Source: Candidatus Alistipes stercoravium
GTDB taxonomy: Bacteria; Bacteroidota; Bacteroidia; Bacteroidales; Rikenellaceae
Reading direction: 5' to 3'
NCBI GenBank assembly: GCA_019119615.1
Contig: DWWQ01000056.1
Span: 1 to 64,000 of the forward strand
DNA length: 64,000 nucleotides
The notes beneath the pieces were generated by a model. It was not told the origin of the DNA. It ran no database searches and saw nothing but the letters and a program-made list of their open reading frames with translations. The position numbers and the translations under genes were made by a program. Below are positions 38,570 through 56,683 of this stretch, one piece after another (position 1 is the first letter of the stretch; the number at the start of each line of letters is the position of its first letter).

Positions 38570-38578
38570 CCCCCCCCC
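38570..38578. repeat. C9 homopolymer just after the GH89 stop codon
   Basis: taacggtcccccccccggcac. Confidence 0.95.
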
Positions 38579-38669: not shown

Positions 38670-39875
38670 TCAGCAGAGGCCGAGCGCCTTGCTGCGGGCC
38701 AGCAGGCAGGCACCGATGACGCCGGCGCGCTCGCCAAGCGTCGAGAGCTTGATCTGCGTATCCTTGTAGACGAGCATGAGCGAATACTTGTTCACGGCCG
38801 TGCGGATGGGCAGCATCAGCGACTCCCCGGCCACCGAAAGCAGACCGCCGATAACGATCATCTCGGGGTTGAACATGTTGATCAGTCCGGCGATCGCCTT
38901 GCCCAGCGTATGGCCGACCGACTCGAGGATCTCGATGGCCAGCACATCCTCCTTCAGCACGGCGTCCAGAATATCCTTGAGTGAAATCTCCTCGCCTTTC
39001 TTGAATTTGTCCGAAAGCATCGAGACGCTGCCCTGACGCAGCTTCTCGAGGAACAGCCGGTGCAGGGCCGATCCCGAAGCACCCGTCTCCAGGCATCCCC
39101 GCTTGCCGCAGCGGCAGATGATTTCGTTGTCGAGCAGCGGGAAGTGCCCGAACTCGCCCGAGAATCCCGACTTGCCGTAGAAGACCTTGCCGTCGATGAT
39201 CATGCCGAGGCCCAAGCCCCACGAGGCGTTAATGTAGAGCATCGTCTGCTCGTTGTGCGCATCGCCGTACATGTATTCGCCGTAGGTCGCCGCACGGGTG
39301 TCGTTCTCGATGTATACCGGACAGTCGAGCCGCTCCTCCAGAAGCAGCGTCAGCGGCTGCTCCTCGACGAAAAAGTAGCTGTAACTGTATCCCGTGCGCG
39401 AATTCACGCGGCCCGAAATGTTCACACCCACGGCCAGCACCTTCTCATGGGGAATCTTGTGTCCGTCGATGAAGCCGCGGATCGTCTCGCAGAGGCGGTC
39501 GAACGAGTGCGGATCATTGTTCATTTCGAAATCGACGATCGTATCGCACAACAGCTGCCCCTTGAAATTGACGGCCGCAAGGACCAGCGAGTCGGTGCGG
39601 ATCTCCACACCGATGAAATAGCCCGCATAGGGATTCAGACCGTAGATGTTCGGGCGGCGTCCGCCGGCCGAGCCCTGCTCGCCGAAGTTGTGGACGAAGC
39701 CCTCGTCGATCAGCTCACCGATGAGCTTCGTTACGGTCGGCACGCTCAGATTGACCGCGCGGCTGAGGTCCGTAATGCTCAAATCGCCGCTGAAGATATA
39801 CTGACAGATGATCTGCTGCTTGAGAATCGCATTTTTATTGCCTTCCGTAGCCTGTTTCAGGAACGAACTGGTCAT
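38670..39875 (-). CDS. ROK family transcriptional regulator (N-terminal wHTH + sugar-kinase-like domain)
   Basis: 401 aa; ITDLSRAVNLSVPTVTKLIGELIDEGFV HTH; LGLGMIIDGKVFYGKSGFSGEFGHFPLLDNEIICRCGKRGCLETGASG ROK signature. Confidence 0.93.
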   Translation of the reverse strand: MTSSFLKQATEGNKNAILKQQIICQYIFSGDLSITDLSRAVNLSVPTVTKLIGELIDEGFVHNFGEQGSAGGRRPNIYGLNPYAGYFIGVEIRTDSLVLAAVNFKGQLLCDTIVDFEMNNDPHSFDRLCETIRGFIDGHKIPHEKVLAVGVNISGRVNSRTGYSYSYFFVEEQPLTLLLEERLDCPVYIENDTRAATYGEYMYGDAHNEQTMLYINASWGLGLGMIIDGKVFYGKSGFSGEFGHFPLLDNEIICRCGKRGCLETGASGSALHRLFLEKLRQGSVSMLSDKFKKGEEISLKDILDAVLKEDVLAIEILESVGHTLGKAIAGLINMFNPEMIVIGGLLSVAGESLMLPIRTAVNKYSLMLVYKDTQIKLSTLGERAGVIGACLLARSKALGLC

Positions 39876-39892
39876 ATTTCCGTTTTTTTAAA

Positions 39893-39913
39893 TTTACCGT
39901 TTGCACAGGTAAA
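39893..39913. promoter_or_regulatory. Candidate ROK operator: tttacc-N9-ggtaaa dyad over the ROK promoter
   Basis: Inverted repeat between the -7 element and the ROK start codon. Confidence 0.55.
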
Positions 39914-39939
39914 GTTAATAATAAAATGCAAAAAGCCAA
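39910..39939 (-). promoter_or_regulatory. Promoter of the ROK regulator gene
   Basis: Minus strand TTG-N19-TAACTTTA (one mismatch from consensus). Confidence 0.6.
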
Positions 39940-40100
39940 AAGAAAAACCGAGAAATGCAGGCCAAGAAGAATCGATGCGCCCGATTTTCATCGGACGGAT
40001 CACAAAAATTATGCTATGCCGTTCCGACGCACGTTACAAATTAAAAGACATCTCTTTTGAATAGCCCCACGGATTTACCATCGGCTGTTTCGAAACGAAA

Positions 40101-40120
40101 AAATATTATCCAAAATATTT
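40101..40120. promoter_or_regulatory. Inverted repeat aaatatt-N6-aatattt upstream of the susC promoter
   Basis: Perfect 7-bp arms abutting the TTG of the candidate promoter. Confidence 0.4.
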
Positions 40121-40148
40121 GAAATGAAAACTTTTATTAGTAATTTGC
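40119..40148 (+). promoter_or_regulatory. Candidate susC promoter
   Basis: TTG-N19-TAATTTGC; imperfect -7 element. Confidence 0.45.
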
Positions 40149-40508
40149 ACTCGCATTTGATACCCGGAAGAAACATTTCAGATACGATAACGACTGAATT
40201 GTATGTATTTGTGCGAAACCAAGGCATTGAGAAAAACGGTCTGTCAGGAATCCGTTCCGATCGGCATCCACACCTCTGCGGCGCCTGTTCTGCCGGAACC
40301 GGGCAGGCTGTCCCCCTCCCGGGAGGTCTCTTACAAATCCAAACCTGCTGCCGAAAGACAAATACTCACGAACGAATCATTCCTAATATTTATATATTAA
40401 TTAAAACGACCTACAAAACCAGAGAAAAACAATCAAAGCCAAAATCCGACACATCGAAAAGAGGAGTACGACTCCCGCAGACGAAAACTCAAACCTATTC
40501 TTTAATCT

Positions 40509-43500
40509 ATGAGAACAAATTTCCAAAGCAAAACTTCCGGAATGCGTCGTTTGGTTGAACGCACCGCAGTCCTGCTGGTCCTGCTTTTCGCAGGTTCCGG
40601 AATAGCTATGGCTCAAGGGTTTACCGTTACCGGTCGTGTAACGAACACCGAGGGGGGGGGAATTCCTGGAGCCACCGTTGTCGTAAAGAGCGATAACACC
40701 CGGGGCACCACGACGGATGCCATGGGTGCCTATTCGCTCGAAGTAAAATCCCCGAACGACGTTCTGATCTTCAGCTTCATCGGTTACAAGACCGTCGAAG
40801 TTCCCGTAAACAACCGTACGACCATCAACGTCCAGATGAACGAGGACGCCACCGAGATGGACGAAGTCGTGGTGATCGGTTACGGTACGCAGAAAAAGCA
40901 GTTCCTCGTGGGTTCTGTCTCGCAGGTCTCGAACAAGGAGCTGCTCAAGGCCCCGATGACCAACGTCTCGAACATGATGACCGGTAAACTCCCCGGCATC
41001 ACGAGTATCCAGCGCTCGGGACAGCCCGGAGCCGACGAGACATCCCTTCTGGTCCGCGGTGTCTCGACCTTCAACAACTCGAGCCCGCTCTGTCTGGTGG
41101 ACGGTATCGAACGCATGATCAATACCGTAAACCCGAACGACATTGCCTCGATTACGATCCTCAAGGATGCCGCCACCTCGGCCATCTACGGTGTGCGCGG
41201 CGCCAACGGTGTCATCCTGATCACCACCAAGAGCGGTTCGGAAGGCGCCACGACCATCTCCTATGACGGCTCGGTAACCTTCACCACCAACACGGCCCTT
41301 CCCGAGTTCCTCAACGCCCAGGACTATATCGGCTGGCACAACAAGGCCCGTGAAATGGACGGCCTCGCCCCGATGTGGACTGACGAGGTAATCGCCAAGA
41401 TGAAGGCCGACGGCACCTACGGCGAGACCGACTGGGTCAACAGCCTCTTCAAGGACTACGGCTTCACTCATCAGCACAATATCTCGGCTACGGGCGGAAA
41501 CGACCGCATCAAGCACTACACGAGCGTCGGCCTGATGAATCAGGACGGTATCGTGCCGAATACCTCCTACGACCGTATCAACATCCGCTCGAACATCGAC
41601 GCCAAGATTGCCAAGAACATCAACTTCTCGATGAACGTGAGCGGATTCCGCGAGAACAAGAACGCTCCGGGATACCCCATCACCAATCAGTACGACTTCA
41701 ACCCGATCATGCAGGCCTTCTACACCCTGCCGATCCTGGCCAAGACCTACAAGGGCCTGCCGCAGGGCTACATGAACGGCTCCTATACCCAGCAGCCCAT
41801 CGCCGCCGTCGAGGACAGCGGTTATATCCGCGACACGCGCTGGCAGTTCGAGGGTAGTGCCAAGCTGGAGTACGACTTCAGCAGCATCGAGGCACTGAAG
41901 GGTCTGAAGGCAAGCGTCTTTGTCGCCTACGACTACTCCAACTCGACGAATCGCAACTACAACCGTCCGTTCCCGGTCATGTCCTTCTCGACCACGACCT
42001 TCGAATCGACCGAAACGACCGGTTCGGGTATCAACAAGCTGGGAACCTTCAACAAGTCCGCATCGTGGGGCGACAGCTTTACGGTACGTCCTCAGCTGAC
42101 CTACGAGCGCGAATTCGGCAAGCACAACGTCAGCGGTCTGTTCCTCTACGAGCAGCGCAAGAACTACTCCGAGACGATGACCGGCTACAAGAACGGCTAC
42201 TACTCCGACTATCCGGTCGATCTGTCGCACGGTACGACCTGGGAAGGTATCAACACGCCGGTCAGCGGCTCGTTCGGTGAGACGGGTATCGCCAGCTTCG
42301 CCGGCCGTTTCAGCTACGCCTACGATCGGAAGTACCTCGCCGAATTCACTTTCCGCGCCGACGGCTCCTACAAGTTCGCACCGAAGAACCGCTGGGGATT
42401 CTTCCCCTCGGTAGCCCTCGGCTGGGTCGCTTCGGAGGAGGAGTTCTTCAAGCAGGCCCTTCCGAAGGTGGACTTCTTCAAGATCCGCGCATCGTACGGT
42501 GAGCTGGGCTCGGACGATACGGATGCATGGCTCTACATGCAGTCCTACAAATCGACCGCTCCTTCGTACAGCTATATCGTCGGCGGTACGGGACATACGG
42601 CCTACTACACCTCCAACTACGTCTATGACAACCTGACCTGGTCGCGTACGCACAGCTACAACATCGGTTTCGATCTGAGCGTCTGGGAGGGTAAACTCGG
42701 CATCGAGTTCGACTGGTTCTACAAACTCACGGACCACATCCTCGAGCAGGTGGGCGGCACATATGCTCCCTCGCTGGGCGGCAACGTACCGACCTATATG
42801 AACTCCGGTAAGGTGGACAACCGCGGATTCGAACTCGTGCTCAAGCACCAGAACTCGTTTGCAAGCGGCTGGCGCTACTCGCTGACCGGAAGCCTCTCGT
42901 GGGCACGCAACCGCATCCTCGCCAAGCATCTGGCAGACGATCACCCGATGTACCGCGCCGTCCTCGGCCAGCCGATGGGTTCGGTATACGGCTTCAAGGC
43001 CATCGGCCTCTTCCAGACCGAAGAGCAGATCGCCAATACGCCGACGGCTCCCTCGGGCGAGAAGCGCCTCGGCGACCTGATGTACGCCGATATCAACGGC
43101 GACGGCAAGATCGACAGTTCGAAGGACTTCGTGAAGATCGGCAACAGCTACACCCCCGAGATGAACTTCTCGCTCACGATGGACGTATCCTACAAGAACG
43201 TCTACCTGACGGCTCTGTGGCAGGGCGTAGCCATCTGCTCCTACCAGCTCAGCGCCGCCTACAACAGCGGTGTATTCGACAACACGATGTACACGCGTCC
43301 GTTCTACAGCAACGGTAACGCCCCCTACTACCTCGTGGAGGGTGCATGGCGTGAGGACAACCGCAATGCGGAGTACCCGCGTCTGAGCACGGTGGCCAAC
43401 GGTAACAACGCCTGGCCGTCGTCGTGGTGGGTTCGCAACGGCGCCTACCTGCGTCTGAAGAACCTCCAGATCGGTTACACGCTGCCCATGCACTTGCTCG

Positions 43501-43658
43501 GCAAGGCCGGCATCGAGCGTGTAAACATCTACCTCGCCGGAACCAACCTTCTGACGTTCAGCGCATTCAAGTATGTAGACCCCGAGATGCCGTCGGTGAA
43601 CAACGGTTACTATCCGCAGCAGCGCACCTACAGCGTCGGAGTCAACCTCACCTTCTAA
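40509..43658 (+). CDS. SusC/RagA-family TonB-dependent outer-membrane transporter
   Basis: 1049 aa; signal peptide, GATVVVKSDNTRGTTTDAMGAYSLEV carboxypeptidase-regulatory-like domain, plug LLVRGVSTFNNSSPLCLVDGIER, beta-barrel to C-terminal F. Confidence 0.97.
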   Translation: MRTNFQSKTSGMRRLVERTAVLLVLLFAGSGIAMAQGFTVTGRVTNTEGGGIPGATVVVKSDNTRGTTTDAMGAYSLEVKSPNDVLIFSFIGYKTVEVPVNNRTTINVQMNEDATEMDEVVVIGYGTQKKQFLVGSVSQVSNKELLKAPMTNVSNMMTGKLPGITSIQRSGQPGADETSLLVRGVSTFNNSSPLCLVDGIERMINTVNPNDIASITILKDAATSAIYGVRGANGVILITTKSGSEGATTISYDGSVTFTTNTALPEFLNAQDYIGWHNKAREMDGLAPMWTDEVIAKMKADGTYGETDWVNSLFKDYGFTHQHNISATGGNDRIKHYTSVGLMNQDGIVPNTSYDRINIRSNIDAKIAKNINFSMNVSGFRENKNAPGYPITNQYDFNPIMQAFYTLPILAKTYKGLPQGYMNGSYTQQPIAAVEDSGYIRDTRWQFEGSAKLEYDFSSIEALKGLKASVFVAYDYSNSTNRNYNRPFPVMSFSTTTFESTETTGSGINKLGTFNKSASWGDSFTVRPQLTYEREFGKHNVSGLFLYEQRKNYSETMTGYKNGYYSDYPVDLSHGTTWEGINTPVSGSFGETGIASFAGRFSYAYDRKYLAEFTFRADGSYKFAPKNRWGFFPSVALGWVASEEEFFKQALPKVDFFKIRASYGELGSDDTDAWLYMQSYKSTAPSYSYIVGGTGHTAYYTSNYVYDNLTWSRTHSYNIGFDLSVWEGKLGIEFDWFYKLTDHILEQVGGTYAPSLGGNVPTYMNSGKVDNRGFELVLKHQNSFASGWRYSLTGSLSWARNRILAKHLADDHPMYRAVLGQPMGSVYGFKAIGLFQTEEQIANTPTAPSGEKRLGDLMYADINGDGKIDSSKDFVKIGNSYTPEMNFSLTMDVSYKNVYLTALWQGVAICSYQLSAAYNSGVFDNTMYTRPFYSNGNAPYYLVEGAWREDNRNAEYPRLSTVANGNNAWPSSWWVRNGAYLRLKNLQIGYTLPMHLLGKAGIERVNIYLAGTNLLTFSAFKYVDPEMPSVNNGYYPQQRTYSVGVNLTF
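40652..40660 (+). repeat. G9 homopolymer inside the susC coding region
   Basis: acc gag ggg ggg gga att; nine consecutive G. Confidence 0.95.
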
Positions 43659-43679: not shown

Positions 43680-45341
43680 ATGAAAAAATCGATATTGATA
43701 ATGGGTCTGGCAGCCGTTCTCGGCGGAAGTTCCTGTTCCGATGTCCTGGATCTGAACCCGGGAGACCGGTTCTCCCCGGCTACGGTCGGGTCGTCGATGA
43801 CTACCGTGGACAACTATGTGCTCGGCCTCTACTCGATCATCAGTACCAGCTCGGAGGTCTACGGAACGAGTTCGCCCAAACTCTCGGATGCCTTCTCCGA
43901 CATTCTGAAGTGCGGCGACTGGGACCAGTACGGCACAAGCTTCAACAAGGCTCTCTTCCAGTCATCGGCCTTCAACAGCACCAGCGCCGGTGCCTTCGAA
44001 TGCTGGGCCTCGCACTACGACCGAATCCGCCGCGAGAACGAGTTCCTGCGCGATGCCCCCGCCTACAAGGATAAGTTCGGCGAGGATTGGATCAACACCC
44101 GCATGGCCGAGGTGCGCTTCTGCCGTGCCTACGCCTACTTCCTGCTCTGCCGCGTCTACGGAGGTGTCATCCTCCGCACCGAGGTGGACGGCCCCGATAA
44201 AAATAACATGGCACGCTCGTCCGAGGAGGATTGCTGGGACTTCATCATCACCGAGCTTCAGGAGCTGGCCCCGATGCTTCCCATGGGCAACAAGGGCACC
44301 GCTGACGACTGGGACAGCTCGAACTACGGACGTGTTACGCAGCAGTCAGCTTACGGCTTTCTGAGCCGCGTGGCCCTCTACGCACAGCGTTGGGACGTAG
44401 CCGTGGATGCCGCCCGCAAGGTGGCCGAGTGCGGTGCCGACCTCGACTGGTCGGGATACGCCAACGTCTTCAACGGCGATCTGCAGAACAACAAGGAGAT
44501 CCTGCTGGCCGTGGATTTCGCTCAGGATGTCATTACGCACCGCTACGATCTGTATGTACGCCCGAGCGGCGACGGCAAGACGAACGGTTATACCCTCTAC
44601 TCGATCTACGCCCCCACGAGCGAGCTGGTGGACAGCTACGAGATGGCCGACGGTACGGAGTTCAGCTGGGAGAAGTATGGCAGCCACCCCTACGAGAACC
44701 GCGAACCGCGTTTCTATGCCACGATCCTCTACAACGGAGCTTCCTGGATGGGCCGCACGATCGAGAGCTATGTCGGCGGTCTGGACGGCTACAAGGAGTA
44801 TGAGGATGCCGGTGCGGCCAATACGACCGTAACGGGTTACTACCTGCGCAAATACCTCAAGAACGACGATACGAGCTGGATCACCCGCTACTCGGACCAA
44901 ACGTGGATCCTGATTCGCTACGCCGAGGTGCTGCTCAACAAGGCCGAGGCACTCGCCGAGCTGAACTGGAGCCAGAACAGCGCCGAGGCGCTGCAGGCCC
45001 TCAACGACGTACGCCGCCGCGTGGGCCTTCCCGCCCGTCAGACGGCTGACAAGGAGCAGTTCATGGAGTACCTGCGCCACGAGCGTATGGTCGAGCTGGC
45101 CGGCGAGGGCTTCCGCTACTGGGATCTGCGCCGCTGGCGCCTGGCTGTGGATGTCATCAACGGCAGCAACGTTCACGGTGTGAAGATCACCAAGAACGCG
45201 GACAACACCTTCACCTATGAGCAGGTGGATGCCGACGCCGGAAACAAGCGTATCTTCTACGAGCGCTACTACCGTTTTGCCATTCCCGAGGACGAGCGCT
45301 CGAAGAACCCGCTCTGCACCAACAACGAGGGATGGGTATAA
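43680..45341 (+). CDS. SusD/RagB-family surface glycan-binding lipoprotein
   Basis: 553 aa; GGSSCSDVLDLNPGD lipobox and N-terminus; RFCRAYAYFLLCRVYGGVIL; LRHERMVELAGEGFRYWDLRRW. Confidence 0.96.
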   Translation: MKKSILIMGLAAVLGGSSCSDVLDLNPGDRFSPATVGSSMTTVDNYVLGLYSIISTSSEVYGTSSPKLSDAFSDILKCGDWDQYGTSFNKALFQSSAFNSTSAGAFECWASHYDRIRRENEFLRDAPAYKDKFGEDWINTRMAEVRFCRAYAYFLLCRVYGGVILRTEVDGPDKNNMARSSEEDCWDFIITELQELAPMLPMGNKGTADDWDSSNYGRVTQQSAYGFLSRVALYAQRWDVAVDAARKVAECGADLDWSGYANVFNGDLQNNKEILLAVDFAQDVITHRYDLYVRPSGDGKTNGYTLYSIYAPTSELVDSYEMADGTEFSWEKYGSHPYENREPRFYATILYNGASWMGRTIESYVGGLDGYKEYEDAGAANTTVTGYYLRKYLKNDDTSWITRYSDQTWILIRYAEVLLNKAEALAELNWSQNSAEALQALNDVRRRVGLPARQTADKEQFMEYLRHERMVELAGEGFRYWDLRRWRLAVDVINGSNVHGVKITKNADNTFTYEQVDADAGNKRIFYERYYRFAIPEDERSKNPLCTNNEGWV

Positions 45342-45800: not shown

Positions 45801-47162
45801 ATGAAAACCTTATTGAAATCCCTCGCTTACGCCGCGCTCGCCGGATTCCTTCTGACCGGATGCTCGGATGACGACACCACGCCCAAGGGCGAAGACGTGG
45901 AACGCGGCGACAAGGCCTGCCGCATCGAAACCTTCATTCTGAACCTCGACAGCGAGACGACGCTCACCGGAGACGTCTACGACTACGACAAGTCGATCGA
46001 CCTGGCCTACACCACCGATCAGCTGGAGCTGATGAAGTCCGCCACGGCTACGCTCACCCTCTCGGAAGGCGCCACCGTATCGCCCGATCCTTCGCAGCCG
46101 GCAGACTACACGCAGCCCATATCGTTCACCGTAACGGCCAAGGACGGGAAGACGACCCGCACCTACACGACCAAGCCCGTGGAGAAGGTGGTAGAACTCT
46201 ACACGAAGGTTGAAGCCGCCCTCTCGAAGACCACGACCGAAATGGGCCTCGGCTCCGTAACCACCAGCGCATCGGAGTACAAGTTCATCGGTGTCAGCGG
46301 CGACAAACTCGTCATCGGCACGAAGGTATTCGACTACAAGACCTTTGCCGCCGTCGGCGAACTGAACATGACCGGATACTCCGATCAGAAGCTGACCGGC
46401 ATGGCCAACGACCATGCAGGCAACCTGATTGCCGCCGTTACCCCGACCGGTGAGGGTACGCCTCCGACGACCATCATCTGCTGGCGGAACGGCTGGGACC
46501 AGGCTCCTTCGGAGTACATCAAGTCCGAGACGAGCTTCATCGGCAAACTGATCTCCGCAGGCGGTAACATCTTCGAGGGTCAGGCTATCGTAAGCGCCAT
46601 GGGCGGAACCGGCCCTGCAGGAGCTCACTTCGTATTCGAGCGTCTGGACGGCAATGCCAACGGCTTCCACGCCGTGGAGACCAAGCACCCGTCGAACGAC
46701 GGTAACTGGTCGCAGATGATCTCGCCCTGCTCGAGCGATCCGCTGGGCACCTGGTTCATGTTCGAATCGGTTGCTGGCGGTTCCGAGATCTACACCTGGA
46801 CCGGATGGTCGGCTCCCAACTCGATCTCCATGACGCAGATCCCGGGTGTGCTCTCCGGCAAGGGCCCGGCCAACTGGGGTAACTTCACGCTGGGTGCGAT
46901 CCGCGGCTTCACCTACAACGATACGGCATATGCAGCCATCGTAACCGCCGGATGGCCCGAAACCTATATCTCGATCGTCAATAAGGACGGTGAGTTCCTG
47001 CTCAACCCCAACGACACCATCACGACCGCTCCTCACACGGGATCCGAGGCGATCATGCAGATCACCTATGCATACGACGAGGAGAAGAACGAAGGCTATG
47101 TCTTTGTTCTCGAGCCCGGTGTATTCGTGAAGAGCTGGAAGCTGACCGTTGCAGCCGAGTAA
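45801..47162 (+). CDS. DUF5018-domain lipoprotein, putative surface glycan-binding protein
   Basis: LTGCSDDD lipobox; ADYTQPISFTVTAKDGKTTRTYT; SusE/F-like position after susD. Confidence 0.7.
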   Translation: MKTLLKSLAYAALAGFLLTGCSDDDTTPKGEDVERGDKACRIETFILNLDSETTLTGDVYDYDKSIDLAYTTDQLELMKSATATLTLSEGATVSPDPSQPADYTQPISFTVTAKDGKTTRTYTTKPVEKVVELYTKVEAALSKTTTEMGLGSVTTSASEYKFIGVSGDKLVIGTKVFDYKTFAAVGELNMTGYSDQKLTGMANDHAGNLIAAVTPTGEGTPPTTIICWRNGWDQAPSEYIKSETSFIGKLISAGGNIFEGQAIVSAMGGTGPAGAHFVFERLDGNANGFHAVETKHPSNDGNWSQMISPCSSDPLGTWFMFESVAGGSEIYTWTGWSAPNSISMTQIPGVLSGKGPANWGNFTLGAIRGFTYNDTAYAAIVTAGWPETYISIVNKDGEFLLNPNDTITTAPHTGSEAIMQITYAYDEEKNEGYVFVLEPGVFVKSWKLTVAAE

Positions 47163-47172
47163 GACCTCTTCT

Positions 47173-47215
47173 TCGGGAAAATGCTGTCTGCACGGCGGAC
47201 GGCGTTTTCCCGAAA
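47173..47215 (+). terminator. Intra-operon hairpin after the DUF5018 lipoprotein gene
   Basis: ttcgggaaaatgct-gtctgc-acg-gcggac-ggcgttttcccgaa extended imperfect stem, weak T-run (ccctttac). Confidence 0.5.
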
Positions 47216-47318
47216 CCCTTTACAATCCGCGTTTTTCCGGCCCGGGGCCGCACCCGGCCGGAGAGATGCGGATCTTTTGAAATAGCAAATCCGATTCATG
47301 TATCAGTTAGTTAGGTTT

Positions 47319-48605
47319 ATGAAATTCCGTATCCACGTTCTGGCAGCACTTTTGGCGGCTGCCTGCTGTCCGGCCTGCAGCGGAGGCACGCAAAACCCTC
47401 CCCGGGCCCAAGAGAGCCAATTCGCCAAATACCTCTGGTTCGATGCCGAGGCAAACTTCGCACGCTTCGCCTCGCAGGATTCGATCCGCTACTGGCTCGA
47501 CCGCACGGTCGAGGCCGGATTCAACCGCATCGTCGTCGACGTGAAGCCCGTCGAAGGAGATGTGCTCTACAAGAGCGATTTCATGCCCGAGCTCGTGGAT
47601 TTCCGCGGCACGAAGGTAGACCGCACCTGGGACTACCTGCAGGTCTTTCTCGATGAGGCAGCCAAACGCAACCTGCGGGTTACCGTCTCGACGACGATCT
47701 TCCCGGTAGGACTTACGGCAACCCGACAGGGCCCCGTCTACCGCGACTCTACCTTCGACGGACGCACCTGCATCCAATACAAACCCGAAGGGTTGATGGA
47801 TATCCGCGACGACAAGCCCGTCGATATCGCCTTTCTCAACCCGGCGATGCCCGAAAACCAGGAGTGGGCCCTGCGCTTCGTCCGCGAAATCCTCTCGAAA
47901 TACCGTTTCGATGCCTACGCGCTCGACTACTGCCGCTATCCGGGCGCCACGGCCGATTTCTCGGAGTTCTCGCACCGCGATTTCGAGAAGTTCCTCGGAC
48001 ACGCCGTCGAGCGTTTCCCGGAAGATATCTTCACCTACGACAAGGAGGGGAAACATGTTCCGGGCAAATACTACAAGCAGTGGTGGGAGTACCGCGCCAA
48101 GGTCATCCGCAACTTCATCGCGCGCGTACGCAACGAGATCGACTCGCTGCAGCCCGGCGTAGCGCTCGAATACTGGGCCGCCTCGTGGCTCCATGCCATC
48201 CACGCGAACGGCCAGAACTGGGCAAGTCCCCGCTCGGACTTCTCGCGCGAATACCTCGACAGTTGGGCGACGCCGGGCTACAAGGAGGCCGGATTCGCCG
48301 ACCTGCTCGACGTATTCATCACCGGGACCTACCTTGAACGGGTCTGGGGCGCCGATGATCCCGAATCGGTGGAATTCGGGCTGAACCGTTCGCTGCGCGA
48401 CGTGCAGGGCGACTGTACGGTATACGGATCGCTCTATGCGAAGAACCATCTTGACCAATTCGACGACGCGGTGTATCTTTGTCTTCGGAAAACGAAGGGT
48501 GTGATGGTCTTCGACATCGTACAGGTAATCGACAACAACCTTTGGGATGCCATCCGGCGGGGTATCGACCGCGCCGAAGCCGAAGCCGCATCCCGGAACA
48601 AATAA
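47319..48605 (+). CDS. GHL10/DUF187-like putative glycosyl hydrolase lipoprotein (paralog 1)
   Basis: YLWFDAEANFARF, AGFNRIVVDVKPVEGDVLY, DAYALDYCRYPG, lipobox PACSGG. Confidence 0.75.
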   Translation: MKFRIHVLAALLAAACCPACSGGTQNPPRAQESQFAKYLWFDAEANFARFASQDSIRYWLDRTVEAGFNRIVVDVKPVEGDVLYKSDFMPELVDFRGTKVDRTWDYLQVFLDEAAKRNLRVTVSTTIFPVGLTATRQGPVYRDSTFDGRTCIQYKPEGLMDIRDDKPVDIAFLNPAMPENQEWALRFVREILSKYRFDAYALDYCRYPGATADFSEFSHRDFEKFLGHAVERFPEDIFTYDKEGKHVPGKYYKQWWEYRAKVIRNFIARVRNEIDSLQPGVALEYWAASWLHAIHANGQNWASPRSDFSREYLDSWATPGYKEAGFADLLDVFITGTYLERVWGADDPESVEFGLNRSLRDVQGDCTVYGSLYAKNHLDQFDDAVYLCLRKTKGVMVFDIVQVIDNNLWDAIRRGIDRAEAEAASRNK

Positions 48606-48621
48606 AAAACCGACAAACGAC

Positions 48622-49998
48622 ATGATCCTTACAATCAAACGACTGTTTCCGGTGCTGTGCGCCCTGCTGCTGATCGGGGCCGGCGCCTGCTCGGAGGAGC
48701 ACCAGACCCCGCCGCCGATCGACAGCGGGGAAGAGGAGGGCGGGGAAAAGCCCGTCGAACCGGACGACAAGCCGGTAAGCGAAAAGGAGAAGATGCTGTG
48801 GTTCGATGCCGAAGCCAACTTCGACCGCTTCCGGACCCAGCAGGGCATTACGGAGATGCTCGACAAGACCGTGGAGGCCGGATTCAACAAGATCGTCGTG
48901 GACGTAAAACCCGTCGAGGGCGATGTCCTCTACGAGAGTTCGTTCATGACGCAGGCAACGCAGATCGGCGACGTCAGCGTTCCGAACCGCGGCTGGGACT
49001 ACCTGCAGTTCTTCCTCGACGAGGCCCACAAGCGCGGTCTGAAGGTTACCGTCTCGACAACGATCTTCCCGATGGGTATGCCCAACCGCCGGCAGGGGCC
49101 CGTATACCGGGATGCGAAGAAGTGGGAAGGCATGACCTGCCTGCAGAATAAGCCCCGCAGCGGCGGAGGCAGCCAGATGGTGGATATCAAGGATGATCCC
49201 ACAAAGGTGGCGGCCTTCCTCAACCCGGTGCTGCCCGAAGTCCGCGAATTCGCGCTGAAATTCATCCGCGAGATCGTTACCAACTACGACTTCGACGCCT
49301 ATGCACTCGACTACTGCCGCTTCCCGGACAACCAGAGCGATTTCTCGGAGGCCTCGAAGAGTGCTTTCGAGGATTACATCAAGGCCAGTGTCGGCACCTG
49401 GCCCGATGACGTCTTCACCTACGATGCCTCGGGAAATATCGTTCCTGGCGTCTACTACAAGCAGTGGTGGGAGTTCCGCTCGATGATCATCCGCGACTTC
49501 GTGGCCGAGGTGCGCCGCGAAATCAAGGCCATCAAGCCCGACGTGAAGCTCGAGTACTGGGCCGCCTCGTGGTGGGGAGCTCTCTATGCCAACGGGCAGA
49601 ACTGGGCCAGCAACTCATACATGCCTCTTGAGGATGTCGAATCAAGCTATTACTACATCTGGTGCTCGAACAACTACTACCGGACCGGATTCGCCGAAGA
49701 ACTCGATACATTCCTGCTCGGCGCCTACCTCGAACGCATCTACGGCGCCGATGACAACGAGTCGGTCGAGTACGCCATCAACCGGGCCGAGCGCATGTTG
49801 CGCAACGCCTGCACCATGTACGGCACCATCCAGTGCGCAGATCCGAATTTCGACATCGAGGAGGCCTGCTACTACTGTCTCAAACGCACGGCCGGACTGA
49901 TGGTCTTCGATATCGTACATGTAATCAACAACAACAAGTGGTCCGCCATCAAGCGCGGTATCGACCGTGCCCTGGCCGAGGACAGGGCGAACGAATAA
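48622..49998 (+). CDS. GHL10/DUF187-like putative glycosyl hydrolase lipoprotein (paralog 2)
   Basis: MLWFDAEANFDRF, AGFNKIVVDVKPVEGDVLY, DAYALDYCRFPD; colinear with the preceding gene product. Confidence 0.75.
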   Translation: MILTIKRLFPVLCALLLIGAGACSEEHQTPPPIDSGEEEGGEKPVEPDDKPVSEKEKMLWFDAEANFDRFRTQQGITEMLDKTVEAGFNKIVVDVKPVEGDVLYESSFMTQATQIGDVSVPNRGWDYLQFFLDEAHKRGLKVTVSTTIFPMGMPNRRQGPVYRDAKKWEGMTCLQNKPRSGGGSQMVDIKDDPTKVAAFLNPVLPEVREFALKFIREIVTNYDFDAYALDYCRFPDNQSDFSEASKSAFEDYIKASVGTWPDDVFTYDASGNIVPGVYYKQWWEFRSMIIRDFVAEVRREIKAIKPDVKLEYWAASWWGALYANGQNWASNSYMPLEDVESSYYYIWCSNNYYRTGFAEELDTFLLGAYLERIYGADDNESVEYAINRAERMLRNACTMYGTIQCADPNFDIEEACYYCLKRTAGLMVFDIVHVINNNKWSAIKRGIDRALAEDRANE

Positions 49999-50029
49999 CG
50001 CAATGACGAAACCAACGACAATACGAACC

Positions 50030-51994
50030 ATGAAACGACTGCTTCTTCTTGCCGCTGCGCTGACGGCCGCAACCGCGATATCAGCCAAGGATTACAAGGT
50101 CGCCTCACCCGACGGACAGATCGAGGTCAAGGTCTCTACCTACCCCGAGCTGCGCTGGAGCGCCTCGCGAGCCGGCGAGCCGCTGCTCGACGAGAGCCGT
50201 ATCGGGATGACCTTTGCCGGAGAGGTTCCCCTGGGAGCGGCGCCGGCCGTACGGAGTGCCCGGACGAAGGCCATCGACGAGCGTTCGACGGCCGAGGTCC
50301 CCACCAAGTTCCGCGAGCTGCACGACCGCTGCAACGAACTCGAAATCGCCTTCCGCGGCGACTGGGCCCTGCGCATGCGCGTCTATGACAATGGTGTGGC
50401 CTACCGCTTCGAGACCTCGCGCAAGGGTGATGCGGTGGTCGTGGACGAGACTGCGGAGTTCAATTTCGCCGCCGACAACGACACCTACTGGACCCGCGAG
50501 CGCAACCCGGACTTCATCTCCCACTGCGAAGCCTTCTTCGAGCGCAAGCGCCTCTCGGAGCTCGAGCGTTCGGTCTATGCCTTCCTGCCGGTCTACTTCG
50601 CCACGCCCCAGGGTACGCGCATGGTCGTTACGGAGACCGATCTGGAGGATTACCCCTGCATGTTCCTCTTCGGAGGCGAGGGCAGCAAGCTCCATGCGGA
50701 GTTTCCGCCCGTGGTGCTCGAAAGCCGCCTGAAGGAGGGTTCGGACCGCAACGAGGAGTTCCTGCGCAAGGCCGACTACATCGCCGCGACGAAGGGCACG
50801 CGTACCTATCCGTGGCGTGTGGTTACGATCGACGGCAGCGACCGCGAGCTGCTCGAGAACTACCTCCCCTACCAGCTGGCCGCCCCGGCCATCGAGGGCG
50901 ACGCCTCGTGGGTGCGTCCCGGAAAGATCGCCTGGGACTGGTGGAACGGACTCAACGTCTACGGCGTCGATTTCCAGGCCGGCGTGAACACTGCGACCTA
51001 CAAGTACTTCATCGACTTTGCCGCGAAGTACGGCATCGAGTACATCCTGCTTGACGAGGGGTGGTCCGTAAGCACGCTCAACATCCGCGAGCCACGCAAG
51101 GAGGTCGATCTGCAGGAGATCATCCGCTACGGCAACGAGAAGGGTGTCGGCGTCGTGCTCTGGACCCTCTGGAACCCGATGAAGAAGGATCTCGAAGGTA
51201 TCCTCGACACCTATCAGAAGTGGGGCGTCAAGGGCATCAAGATCGACTTCATGCAGCGCTCCGACCAGGAGATGGTCAATTTCTACGAGCAGATCGCCCG
51301 GGCGGCCTTCGACCGCGGGCTGCTGGTCGATTACCACGGTTCGTTCAAGCCCGCGGGTCTGCAGCGCAAATACCCCAACGTCCTGTCGTTCGAGGGCGTT
51401 TACGGTATGGAGAACGACAAGTGCTCGAAGGACATCACCCCGGGGCATGACTGCGTGCTTCCCTTCACGCGCATGGTCGCCGGCCCGATGGACTACACGC
51501 CCGGCGCCACGGTGAACGCTACGGCCGCCGACTTCTCGATCAGCTGGAGCCACCCCATGAGCCAGGGTACCCGCGCCCATCAGGCGGCGCTCTACGTCGT
51601 TTACGAAAGCCCGCTGCAGATGCTCTGCGACTCGCCGTCGCACTACCTCCGCACGCCCGAATTCACGGGATTCATCGCCGCCATCCCTACCGTCTGGGAC
51701 GAGATCGTGGCCCTGCACGCCTCGGCCGGCGAGTATGTCGCCGTGGCACGCCGCAACGGCGACAAGTGGTACATCGGCGCCATCACCGACTGGACGGGCC
51801 GCGATCTGGAGATCGACCTCTCGTTCCTCGGCGAGGGCAGCTACCGCATGCAGAGTTTCGAGGACGGCGTGAATGCCGACGTCTATGCGCAGGATTTCCG
51901 CACGGCCGAACGCACGGTCAGCCGCAACGACCGCATAACGATCCACCTCGCCTCCGGAGGCGGATGGGCCGCCATTCTGACCCCTGAAAAGTAG
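50030..51994 (+). CDS. GH97 family glycoside hydrolase, retaining type (alpha-galactosidase-like)
   Basis: LLDEGWS, GVKGIKIDFMQRSDQEMVNFYE, VDYHGSFKPAGLQRKYPNVLSFEGVYGMEND, AGPMDYTPGA. Confidence 0.9.
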   Translation: MKRLLLLAAALTAATAISAKDYKVASPDGQIEVKVSTYPELRWSASRAGEPLLDESRIGMTFAGEVPLGAAPAVRSARTKAIDERSTAEVPTKFRELHDRCNELEIAFRGDWALRMRVYDNGVAYRFETSRKGDAVVVDETAEFNFAADNDTYWTRERNPDFISHCEAFFERKRLSELERSVYAFLPVYFATPQGTRMVVTETDLEDYPCMFLFGGEGSKLHAEFPPVVLESRLKEGSDRNEEFLRKADYIAATKGTRTYPWRVVTIDGSDRELLENYLPYQLAAPAIEGDASWVRPGKIAWDWWNGLNVYGVDFQAGVNTATYKYFIDFAAKYGIEYILLDEGWSVSTLNIREPRKEVDLQEIIRYGNEKGVGVVLWTLWNPMKKDLEGILDTYQKWGVKGIKIDFMQRSDQEMVNFYEQIARAAFDRGLLVDYHGSFKPAGLQRKYPNVLSFEGVYGMENDKCSKDITPGHDCVLPFTRMVAGPMDYTPGATVNATAADFSISWSHPMSQGTRAHQAALYVVYESPLQMLCDSPSHYLRTPEFTGFIAAIPTVWDEIVALHASAGEYVAVARRNGDKWYIGAITDWTGRDLEIDLSFLGEGSYRMQSFEDGVNADVYAQDFRTAERTVSRNDRITIHLASGGGWAAILTPEK

Positions 51995-52000
51995 CGAACG

Positions 52001-53494
52001 ATGAAAAACTGCCTACGGAAAACCCTTCTTGCGGGATTGTTGCTCGCCTCGGGGCTCCTTGCAGCCCCGGCGGCGGGCGCCCCGAAGGAGCTGCGGGGCC
52101 GCGTAACGGCTGACGGCCGGGGCGTGGCCGGAGTCCGCGTTACGGACGGGCACCGCTTCGTCGAAACCGACCGCCGGGGCTTCTACCGCCTGCCGGCCGC
52201 CGAGGGGGCGGAGTTCGTCTACCTGACCCTGCCCGACGGCTATGAGATTCCCGCCCGGGAGGGTGCCGCCACGCTCTACCGCCGCATCGACCCGGAGCAG
52301 TCGGCACATTACGACTTCACGCTCCGGCGCTCCGCGAAGGAGATGACGCGCCACCGGCTGCTTCTCGTGGCCGATCCGCAGGTCTACTTCGAGCAGGAAC
52401 TCGACAGCGTGCGCCGTGCCGCCGCCGACATGCGGCTGACGGCCGCGGACGGCATGGAGACCTTCGGCGTCGCCTGCGGCGACATCATCGGCGACATCAC
52501 CCGCAAGCCGCTGCTGTTCGAACCCGTACGCGATGCGCTCGCCGAAAGCGGCGCACCCTTCTTCTACGTCTTCGGCAACCACGACATGGATGTCGATGCC
52601 CGGTCGAACGACTACTCGAAGGAGTCGTTCAAGGAGTGTTTCGGCCCCACCTACTACTCCTTCGACCGCGGCCGAATCCACTATGTCGTCCTCGACGACG
52701 TCTTTTTCCTCGCCCGCGGATATCTCTACACGGGGTATCTCGAAGAGCGGCAGCTCCGGTGGCTCGAGGAGGATCTGGCAGCCGTACCGCACGGACGCAC
52801 CGTCGTTGTCTGCTTCCACATCCCCACCTGGTCGCGCGCCGCACGGCAGGGTGAATGGAGCAAGGAGGAGGCCAACAAGGTGCTCAACAACCGCCGGGCG
52901 CTCTACAAGCTGCTCGAACCCTACCGGGCGCACATCCTCTCAGCCCATGAGCACTACAACGAGAACTACCGGCCCGTGGAGCATGTCTTCGAGCATGTGC
53001 ACGCCCCGTTGAGCACGCTCTTCTGGCAGACCCCCTGGAGCATGGACGGCATTCCGGCGGGATATGCCGTCTACGAGGCCGACGGCGACGAGCTGACCTG
53101 GTATTGGAAAGCCGTCGATTACGACCGCGGCCGCCAGTTCACCGCCTACGCCGTGGGGGCCGACCGCCGCAAGCCGGAGGCCGTAACGGTCAATGTCTGG
53201 AACTACGATCCCGCGTGGAAGGTGCGCTGGTACGAGAACGGCGAGCCGCGGGGCGAGATGACCCGCTATACGGGTTACGACGCCTCGATCGCCGACTATG
53301 TAGCCCTCCACAGCCAGCATTTCAAATACAAGTATATCGGAGCCGCACCGACCGAACACCTCTTCATGGCCGTACCCTTATCGCCCGACGCCGACGTGCG
53401 CGTGGAGGTCGAGGACCGCTTCGGCAACCGTTACCTGTGGTCCGAAAAAGAGGGGTACACCTCCTGTCCGGCTGCCGAAAACCCGAACGAATAA
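52001..53494 (+). CDS. Calcineurin-like metallophosphoesterase, secreted, with N- and C-terminal accessory domains
   Basis: VADPQVYF, ACGDIIGDI, YVFGNHDMD, FHIPTW, SAHEHYNENY. Confidence 0.9.
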   Translation: MKNCLRKTLLAGLLLASGLLAAPAAGAPKELRGRVTADGRGVAGVRVTDGHRFVETDRRGFYRLPAAEGAEFVYLTLPDGYEIPAREGAATLYRRIDPEQSAHYDFTLRRSAKEMTRHRLLLVADPQVYFEQELDSVRRAAADMRLTAADGMETFGVACGDIIGDITRKPLLFEPVRDALAESGAPFFYVFGNHDMDVDARSNDYSKESFKECFGPTYYSFDRGRIHYVVLDDVFFLARGYLYTGYLEERQLRWLEEDLAAVPHGRTVVVCFHIPTWSRAARQGEWSKEEANKVLNNRRALYKLLEPYRAHILSAHEHYNENYRPVEHVFEHVHAPLSTLFWQTPWSMDGIPAGYAVYEADGDELTWYWKAVDYDRGRQFTAYAVGADRRKPEAVTVNVWNYDPAWKVRWYENGEPRGEMTRYTGYDASIADYVALHSQHFKYKYIGAAPTEHLFMAVPLSPDADVRVEVEDRFGNRYLWSEKEGYTSCPAAENPNE

Positions 53495-53508
53495 AAACCA
53501 ACGACACG

Positions 53509-55521
53509 ATGAAACGATACCTTACGCTGATTGCCGCCGCCGTTGCGGCGCTCGGTCTCGCGACGGGATGCAGCCCCCGCAGCGCCTCGGTCAGCTCGCC
53601 CGACGGAAGCCTCTCGCTGGAGGTCTCCGTGCGCGACGGCCGCGTCGGCTACACACTCCACCGCGAGGGAAAATCCCTGCTCGACTTCTCGACGCTGGGC
53701 TTCGATTTGAAGGATGCTCCGGCCCTGCGCGACGGGCTGGAGATCTGCGGCACGGAAACGGACTCCTTCGACGAGACCTGGGAGCAGGTCTGGGGCGAGG
53801 AGCACTTCGTCCGCAACCACTACAACGAACTGACCGTCTCGCTGCGCGAGCGGCAGGCCCCGAACCGCCGTTTCGATGTGGTTTTCCGCCTCTTCGACGA
53901 CGGCATGGGATTCCGCTGCGAGTTTCCCGAACAGCCCGACCTCGGGGAGTTCGTCATCATGGACGAGCTGACCGAGTTCCGCTTCCCGGAGGACCACATG
54001 GCCTGGTGGATGCCCACGCGCGAACCCTACTACGAGAGCATCGCCCGCCACACGCCCATCTCGCAGATGGATACGGTGAATACGCCGCTGACGATCGAGT
54101 GCGCCGGCGGGGAGTTCCTCGCGCTGCATGAGGCGAACCTGACGGATTACGCCAAGATGAGCCTCTATCCCGCGGATGGCGGCACGACGCTGCGCTGCTA
54201 CCTCACGCCGTGGTCGAACGGCGTGAAGGTCTATGCCCGCACGCCGTGGCGCACGCCGTGGCGCACGATCGTCGTGGGCGACACGCCGGGCGACCTCGTA
54301 ACCTCGCGGCTGATGCTCAACCTCAACGAACCCTCGAAGATCGAGGACACCTCGTGGATCCGTCCGGGCAAATACATCGGCATCTGGTGGTCGATGCACC
54401 TCTTCCAGGAGACCTGGGCACAGGGCCCGCACCACGGCGCCACGACCGAGAACATGATGCGCTACATCGACTTCGCCGCGGAGAACGGCATCGAAGGAGT
54501 GCTGGCCGAGGGCTGGAATGTCGGCTGGGACGGCGAGTGGACCAAGAACAGCGACAAGATCCGCTTCGCGGAGCCCTACCCCGACTTCGACATCGACCGG
54601 ATCGCCGACTACGCCGCCAAAAAGGGCGTGCAGCTGATCGGCCACCACGAAACGGGCGCCAACACGAAGAATTATGAGGCGCAGATGGAGGAGGCCTTCG
54701 CCTTCTGCCGCCGCCACGGCATCCGGGCCGTCAAGACCGGCTATGTCAATGTCCTGATGGACGGCAAGGAGCTCCACGACAGCCAGTACGGCGTGCGCCA
54801 CTACCGCAAGGTGATCGAGACGGCCGCCCGCTACGGCATCGCGATCGACAACCACGAACCCGTCATGCCGACAGGCCTCGAGCGCACCTGGCCCAATCTG
54901 ATGACCCAGGAGGGCGTGCGCGGACAGGAGTACAACGCCTGGTCGCCCGACGGCGGAAACCCGCCCGAGCATACGACCGTCGTGCCGTTCCTGCGCGGGC
55001 TGGCCGGACCGATGGACTACACGTTCGGCACGTTCGACTTCTCGAATCCCGTATCGCCCTTCGCCCGCGTACAATCGACCATCGCCCGCGAACTGGCACA
55101 TTACGTCGTGATCTACAGCCCGCTGCAGATGGCCTCGGACCTTCCGGAGCACTATGCCGGACAGCCCGCCTTCGCCTTCATCCGCGACGTGGCGACCGAC
55201 TGGGAGCGCACCGTCGTGCCCCAGGCCGTCATCGGCGACTACTGCGTCTTCGCACGCCAGAAGCGCGATTCGCAGGAGTGGTTCCTCGGCGCCATCACCG
55301 ACGAGACGCCCCGCACGCTGACCGTCGCACTGGATTTCCTCGACCCCGAGATGCACTACCGGGCGCAGATCTATGCCGACGGCGAGAAGGCCGACTGGAA
55401 GACGAATCCCTATGACGTGGCGATCAGCGAACGCCGGGTCGCCGCAAGCGACTCGCTGCAGATCCGCATGGCCTCGGGCGGCGGATGCGCCATCCGCTTC
55501 GTACCCGAACCGGAAAAATAA
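53509..55521 (+). CDS. GH97 family glycoside hydrolase, inverting SusB-like (alpha-glucosidase-like) lipoprotein
   Basis: GHHETGANTKNYEAQ, IDNHEPVMPTGLERTWPN, GVRGQEYNAWSPDGGNPPEHTTVVPFLRGLAGPMDYT. Confidence 0.93.
   Translation: MKRYLTLIAAAVAALGLATGCSPRSASVSSPDGSLSLEVSVRDGRVGYTLHREGKSLLDFSTLGFDLKDAPALRDGLEICGTETDSFDETWEQVWGEEHFVRNHYNELTVSLRERQAPNRRFDVVFRLFDDGMGFRCEFPEQPDLGEFVIMDELTEFRFPEDHMAWWMPTREPYYESIARHTPISQMDTVNTPLTIECAGGEFLALHEANLTDYAKMSLYPADGGTTLRCYLTPWSNGVKVYARTPWRTPWRTIVVGDTPGDLVTSRLMLNLNEPSKIEDTSWIRPGKYIGIWWSMHLFQETWAQGPHHGATTENMMRYIDFAAENGIEGVLAEGWNVGWDGEWTKNSDKIRFAEPYPDFDIDRIADYAAKKGVQLIGHHETGANTKNYEAQMEEAFAFCRRHGIRAVKTGYVNVLMDGKELHDSQYGVRHYRKVIETAARYGIAIDNHEPVMPTGLERTWPNLMTQEGVRGQEYNAWSPDGGNPPEHTTVVPFLRGLAGPMDYTFGTFDFSNPVSPFARVQSTIARELAHYVVIYSPLQMASDLPEHYAGQPAFAFIRDVATDWERTVVPQAVIGDYCVFARQKRDSQEWFLGAITDETPRTLTVALDFLDPEMHYRAQIYADGEKADWKTNPYDVAISERRVAASDSLQIRMASGGGCAIRFVPEPEK
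54241..54264 (+). repeat. Perfect 12-bp tandem duplication encoding TPWR-TPWR in GH97
   Basis: acgccgtggcgc x2. Confidence 0.9.
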
Positions 55522-55591
55522 AAGAGTCCGGACCCGCGTGTCGCACAGGCATGCGGGTCTTCATTTCCAACCCCCAAAGAGAGATCCGAAC

Positions 55592-56683
55592 ATGAAAAAA
55601 TACCTTTTGGCAGTAGCCTGGCTGCTGCTTGCGGCGGGCACGGCCGAAGCCCGCAAGACGCAGATGCACTTCACACCGGCCACGGCCCCGGAGATCCGTT
55701 TCGTGGGCCGTTCGGCAACGGGCCCCGACGGCGAGCGGTCGTTCGACTGGAGCGGCACCTACTTCACCTTCCGTTTCGAAGGACGCCGCTGCGCCATGCG
55801 CGCCTCGGACACCAAACGCAACTACTACAACGTCTTCATCGACGGGCGCCGGCACGGCACGGTGGCCGTCACGGGCGGCGACACGACGATCCTGCTGGCC
55901 GACGGCCTTTCGCGCGGCGAGCATACGGTGCTCGTACAGAAGCGCACCGAGGCCGAACAGGGCCGCACGACGCTGCACGGCATCCTGACCGACGGCGCAC
56001 TGCTCCCGGCGCCCGCAGCGCCGGGGCGCCACATCGAATTCATCGGCGACTCGCACACCTGCGGCTACGGCACCGAAGGCAAATCGCCCAAGGAACCCTT
56101 CACCCCCGAGACGGAGAACTGCGACCTGGCATGGGGATGCATCATCGCCCGCTACTTCGATGCCGACTACACGCTCATCGCCCACTCGGGGCAGGGCATG
56201 GTCCGCAACTGGGGCGACCGTCCCGAAGGATCGGCCTGCACGATGCGCGAACGGCTGACCCGGACATTCGACATGGAGGAGGAGCCGCAGTGGGACTTCG
56301 CAGGCTACCGGCCCGACATCGTGGTCATCAAGCTCGGCTCGAACGACTACAGCGAGGACGTATCGCCCTCGAAGGAGGCCTTCAACGGGGCCTATGCCGA
56401 GGCGCTGCGCAAGCTCCGCAAAGCCTACGGCGACGTGCCGGTGCTGTGTGTCGCCCCGTGCGAGAACACCACGGTCTACGGGCACCTGAAGGAGCTGCTC
56501 GAGGAGCTGCAGGACCCGAACCTCCACTGCATGGTGCTCACCCCCGGGCTCTTCAACTGGGACAGCGACATGGGCGCCAATTTCCACGCCAACCACCGCG
56601 GACACCGGAAGATGGCCTCGGCAGTCATCCCCTACATTGCAACCGTCATGGGGTGGGAGATGCCGGAAAAAGTCGTATATTAG
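55592..56683 (+). CDS. SGNH/GDSL esterase with N-terminal jelly-roll domain (CE2-like)
   Basis: Signal peptide; HIEFIGDSHTCGYGTEG, IVVIKLGSNDYSED, NFHANHRGHRKMA. Confidence 0.85.
   Translation: MKKYLLAVAWLLLAAGTAEARKTQMHFTPATAPEIRFVGRSATGPDGERSFDWSGTYFTFRFEGRRCAMRASDTKRNYYNVFIDGRRHGTVAVTGGDTTILLADGLSRGEHTVLVQKRTEAEQGRTTLHGILTDGALLPAPAAPGRHIEFIGDSHTCGYGTEGKSPKEPFTPETENCDLAWGCIIARYFDADYTLIAHSGQGMVRNWGDRPEGSACTMRERLTRTFDMEEEPQWDFAGYRPDIVVIKLGSNDYSEDVSPSKEAFNGAYAEALRKLRKAYGDVPVLCVAPCENTTVYGHLKELLEELQDPNLHCMVLTPGLFNWDSDMGANFHANHRGHRKMASAVIPYIATVMGWEMPEKVVY

Follow-up and report, generated by a model that had tools for sequence, protein, structure and literature searches.

Does a run of nine guanines near the start of a gene for a SusC-type outer-membrane receptor serve as an ON/OFF switch of that receptor? 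An original prediction, made from the DNA letters, had taken this G9 tract for the mark of a candidate phase-variable receptor. The window, i.e. the whole stretch of 64,000 nt that was analysed, comes from an Alistipes genome of 2.12 Mb in 64 contigs, and the features of the locus are listed in Table 1.

Table 1. Features at and around the G9 tract of susC (positions in the 64,000-nt window)
Feature	Position	Strand	Basis or remark
Divergent ROK-family regulator (winged HTH and ROK)	38670..39875	-	Pfam; NCBIfam NagC/Mlc-like, below cut-off
susC: SusC/RagA family TonB-dependent outer-membrane transporter, 1049 aa, signal peptide, CarbopepD_reg_2 and Plug	40509..43658	+	Pfam; TIGR04056
G9 homopolymer tract (GAG GGG GGG GGA), proposed ON/OFF switch	40652..40660	+	susC codons 48-51; sequence, frame outcomes, G9 in orthologs
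TAA stop reached with one G fewer (58-aa product)	40684..40686	+	In silico frame reading
TAA stop reached with one G more (62-aa product)	40694..40696	+	In silico frame reading
susD: SusD/RagB family lipoprotein, SusC partner, 21 nt downstream of susC	43680..45341	+	Pfam PF07980, PF14322; SusD_RagB 3e-56
Downstream polysaccharide-utilisation genes: DUF5018, two GHL10 hydrolases, two GH97, metallophosphoesterase, CE2-type esterase	45801..56683	+	Pfam

The tract decides the reading frame of a full-length susC

The susC product matched TIGR04056 over its full length (model positions 1-981) with 980.8 bits against a cut-off of 368.25, and together with its carboxypeptidase-like and Plug domains and the susD gene directly downstream this assigns it to the SusC/RagA family. 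The locus is a typical polysaccharide-utilisation locus, of which the divergent ROK-family protein is likely the regulator. The tract was found at exactly the predicted position and in frame, and begins in codon 48 of the 1049-codon ORF, in line with the predicted distance of about 50 codons. Reading of in silico alleles gave a product of 1049 aa for G9, 58 and 59 aa for G8 and G11, which end at the first TAA of Table 1, and 61 and 62 aa for G7 and G10, which end at the second, so that both stops predicted for the loss and gain of one G were correct. The tract therefore shows two properties of a contingency locus, namely that a slip-prone homopolymer lies in the 5′ part of the reading frame, and that a change of one unit in either direction shifts the frame and abolishes the product. 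As had been claimed, the glycine codons of susC are mainly GGC (43), GGT (36) and GGA (16), and two of its only three GGG codons lie inside the tract.

SusC-type genes can also be switched by invertible DNA. For this susC such an inverton was rejected, since a search of 39850-40560 found no clear inverted repeats for it; the only pairs there were AT-rich, imperfect and 14-15 nt long (86-87%). MutS-family genes are present, so slippage would be expected to be partly repaired and to occur at a moderate rate.

Orthologs of this gene keep nine guanines

G9 is in frame in each of the three nearest orthologs (97.8, 92.4 and 85.6% identity at the DNA level), while their other four-fold sites are conserved at 95, 82 and 62% and their other glycine third positions at 95, 81 and 43%, respectively. 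Replacement of the tract by mixed glycine codons in orthologs, which the original prediction had named as evidence against a switch, was thus not seen in these three. All four copies of the gene, from one genome per species, are G9 and ON, and no G8 or G10 allele of this susC was seen among the available orthologs, which come from other species with one genome each; a look for further copies in viral contigs gave none. Two distant homologs (59 and 46% aa identity) have G9 and G10 at the same place, both in frame, and other homologs are without a tract.

This lack of tract variation among the orthologs would also fit another explanation, namely that a mutational or repair habit of Alistipes makes and holds G9 anywhere, that the tract here is neutral, and that OFF alleles elsewhere are ordinary pseudogenes. 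We consider this unlikely on the evidence from the sister genes given below.

Runs of nine are far in excess of chance at SusC gene starts

A dinucleotide shuffle of the window yielded an unremarkable result for G8 (4 matches versus a mean of 3.54), by which G8 and G9 would simply be expected; it was rejected as a null, being blind to codon structure and to the missing lengths of 6-8, and was replaced by run-length distributions and synonymous-codon shuffles. The window has 50 G/C runs of length five, none of six, seven or eight, and two of exactly nine. The same gap appeared in 202 SusC genes of seven Alistipes genomes, in which 340 G/C runs of five, 13 of six, none of seven or eight, 59 of nine, two of 10 and one of 11 were counted. 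In 96 SusC genes, 39 runs of at least eight were observed, compared with a mean of 5.7 and a maximum of 11 in 300 synonymous-codon shuffles. This difference and the spike at nine put the tracts far beyond chance, and the shuffles reject glycine codon bias as their source, as the original prediction had held for the tract of susC.

The spike was found outside the SusC genes as well. Over 444 kb of this genome, G/C runs of six, seven, eight and nine numbered 40, 5, 1 and 8, and over 400 kb around the SusC genes of the single-contig relative G153 they numbered 20, 0, 2 and 11, with none longer in either case; the A/T runs of the same 444 kb and 400 kb decayed smoothly without a spike at nine.

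Although G9 is in excess genome-wide, intergenic sites included, as a neutral habit of the genus would have it, the SusC starts are enriched for runs far above the genome average. In this genome an N-terminal G9 or C9 is carried by 6 of the 13 SusC genes with an intact start, and 6 of its 25 tracts of at least nine fall within the 0.28% of its bases that make up the SusC N-terminal parts (Poisson P = 1.4e-10 versus an even spread). Tracts were likewise present in 7 of 12 SusC genes in genome G008, 5 of 11 in G138, 7 of 22 in G007 and 10 of 38 in G153, and genomes G013 and G016, with 106 SusC genes between them, had 18 tracts. Near-start tracts come to about 53 in the 202 SusC genes, about a quarter, in counts that include between-species orthologs and so are not all independent; three relatives that duplicated already counted assemblies (zero mismatches over 4000 bases) were counted once. 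In the first 96 SusC genes, 35 of 39 tracts lie within the first 150 codons, and the gene bodies, with 4 of 39, rarely carry one.

The sister tracts occupy mutually unrelated sites, i.e. the signal peptide, the region just past its cleavage site, an N-terminal extension or the carboxypeptidase-like domain, and show 31 distinct peptide contexts in five genomes. They are runs of either G or C, lie in all three phases and code for Gly, Pro or Arg, so that the DNA run, not the peptide, is their common element. Some relatives encode the Gly-Gly-Gly of sister SusC genes by mixed codons without a run, and hence the protein does not depend on one. These features also bear on a role of the tract in expression, in which the receptor dose would be set by slow GGG codons or by RNA polymerase or ribosomes slipping on the run. 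The tracts lie early, many of them within or close to the signal peptide, a region in which slow translation can have an effect, and this would suit such a role; but the mixture of G and C runs, phases and residues does not, a codon effect needs no unbroken run, and frame-changing alleles exist, which together make it quite improbable.

Natural ON and OFF alleles occur in sister SusC genes

Alleles that differ by one base at the tract were found in sister SusC genes, a further property of a contingency locus. In a pair of 95% aa identity, the G013 gene is G9 and ON, while its G016 counterpart is G10 and OFF, with a stop after 43 aa, and would encode 1043 aa if it had nine. In a second pair (94% aa identity) the states are reversed, C9 and ON in G016 and C10 and OFF in G013, and the aligned flanks differ by substitutions only. 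One mid-gene tract leaves the frame open with G9 in G153 but shifts it with G10 in G009, and a tract in the signal peptide leaves it open with C9 in this genome and G008 but shifts it with C10 in a homolog in G020. In G013 and G016, with their 106 SusC genes, each of the three runs longer than nine (10 or 11) is OFF. Some tracts are OFF at nine (G016:C15, G007:C34 and a mid-gene tract of G153), and in these assemblies about 5 of the 53 N-terminal SusC tracts are OFF.

That nine is kept even in these three OFF frames is again what a neutral run, made and held everywhere, would give. Against OFF alleles being ordinary pseudogenes, however, those examined keep, apart from the tract, an open frame of about 1000 codons and are not decayed, and close species have the alternative frame at the same tract.

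Beyond these pairs, the SusC gene of G007:C34 (L239, upstream of 90356) has both an A9 at its start codon and a G9 after its signal peptide, each out of frame. Two surface genes other than SusC were also OFF at ten; one (L255, in G019) encodes a lipoprotein with a choice-of-anchor J / DUF5017 domain, the other (L249, in G012) an FG-GAP protein.

Length nine is a feature of the genus

Exact G9, G8 and G10 runs numbered 1416, 537 and 94 in 30 Alistipes genomes (this one and those at least 97% complete; sums from tabulated values), and G9 outnumbered G8 in 24 of the 30. The rest of the order, sampled with 69 genomes of at least 99% completeness, gave 201 G9 versus 560 G8 runs, with G9 ahead of G8 in only 6. 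Exact G9 in Alistipes thus outnumbers G8 several-fold and G10 about 15-fold, which sets the genus apart from the rest of the order. Two Alistipes genomes, G001 and G017, do not show this spike, so that it is a feature of the genus, though not of every species.

A trivial source of such a spike would be wrong homopolymer lengths from sequencing or assembly, as many of the relatives are metagenome-assembled genomes and run lengths are error-prone in some technologies. Yet nine recurs independently in many assemblies, including a single-contig genome, A/T runs and the rest of the order are without such a spike, and G9 leaves most SusC frames open, all of which renders an artefact extremely improbable.

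Tracts whose ON frame is at eight or ten were also found at nine, and intergenic runs are likewise nine long. One of these, a C9 (+ strand) at 38570-38578, is found close to a terminator-like hairpin in the gap that separates the convergent NAGLU and ROK genes, a place where a frame switch would be senseless. The presence of G9 at sites where switching makes little sense indicates that a process besides selection on SusC also makes or keeps it, and the sharpness of length nine is not accounted for by the slipped-strand model. As a guess, nine may be the length where growth and shrinkage balance, set by the polymerase and repair of the genus. We also put forward, tentatively and as more doubtful than not, that an active process builds poly-G and caps it at a working length of nine, and that Alistipes uses the tracts as a genus-wide set of switches over a large share of its SusC genes; if so, length nine would be a property of replication or repair in the genus and not of each gene.

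Runs of nine were also observed at genes of other kinds. One immediately precedes the start codon of a lipid A acyltransferase gene (L009:1495-1515; PF03279), a candidate expression switch. Others precede start codons at a short distance (L012, L015, L007) and are candidate promoter or 5′-leader switches; the genes encode a GHL10 lipoprotein, a thioredoxin-like lipoprotein and, with a few nt between run and ATG, an unnamed ORF. In addition, G9 occurs within the signal-peptide sequence of an exported protein of 364 aa (L008:1453-2547) without a Pfam or NCBIfam match.

A slipped-strand contingency locus is the best explanation

Taking these lines together, the G9 tract of susC is most likely, though not with certainty, a simple-sequence contingency locus that switches SusC on and off, and Alistipes probably switches its surface receptors by miscounting Gs. 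The tracts at SusC starts in about a quarter of the genes, the spike in the genus and the one-base ON/OFF orthologs of sister genes all support the candidate phase-variable receptor of the original prediction, and the case is stronger than its author could know, to whom the genus-wide length of nine was invisible.

In the proposed mechanism, the polymerase would slip on the run during replication and so add or drop one G. With nine Gs, susC would be read through and the SusC/SusD transporter made; with eight or ten, translation would end about 60 residues in, hence no transporter would be made, and the closely spaced susD may drop as well. A clonal population would in this way keep a minority of cells without the receptor, possibly as a reserve against phages or toxins that target it, or against the cost of a useless transporter. 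We infer that the tract of susC slips at a useful rate and reverts within a clone, and that selection favours bet-hedging with the receptor. What counts against a contingency locus is that length is pinned at nine in the SusC tracts, unlike in classical contingency loci, whose tract length varies more widely.

SusC transporters determine the glycans that a gut Bacteroidota cell can import, and phages and toxins may dock on them. If a set of homopolymer switches does extend over many SusC genes of Alistipes, a major gut genus, receptor repertoires would vary between individual cells in a manner invisible to surveys of invertons, and many of the 'pseudogenes' in assembled Alistipes genomes may be switched-off genes.

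Comparison with known phase-variable systems

Searches of open-licence full-text literature found homopolymer phase variation described neither for Alistipes nor for SusC genes, and the words homopolymer and slipped are absent from a 2025 review of gut Bacteroidales (PMC12632263). The slippage mechanism itself is known; what appears new, provisionally, is a multi-gene set of homopolymer SusC switches in Alistipes.

The same receptor family is phase-variable in Bacteroides fragilis, in which SusC/SusD expression varies by DNA inversion (Nakayama-Imaohji 2009, as cited in PMC12632263). The bacterial order and the kind of outcome, a variable surface transporter, are also shared; in B. fragilis, however, a site-specific invertase flips the DNA, whereas the in-frame homopolymer switch proposed for Alistipes needs no recombinase.

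With Campylobacter jejuni, Alistipes shares the many G/C tracts per genome and, if the proposed switch holds, the frame switching of surface-related genes. The poly-G genes of C. jejuni serve mainly surface-glycan and flagellar modification and have a wider spread of lengths than those of Alistipes, which are SusC transporters with tracts of nine. C. jejuni NCTC11168 has 29 loci with tracts of seven or more (PMC4965091). A gut commensal with a slippage switch in surface genes is Bifidobacterium breve, whose pilus genes are turned ON and OFF by replication slippage (PMC9187656); it resembles what is proposed for Alistipes in these respects, but the genes are for Gram-positive pili and not for receptors.

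Poly-G phase-variable TonB-dependent receptors are known from Neisseria meningitidis, in which the length of an in-frame poly-G switches translation of the outer-membrane haemoglobin receptors HmbR and HpuAB ON and OFF (PMC3786947). Neisseria belongs to another phylum, and its switching concerns another receptor family, with two systems for haemoglobin, whereas in Alistipes about a quarter of a large SusC repertoire carries a tract, which is almost always nine long.
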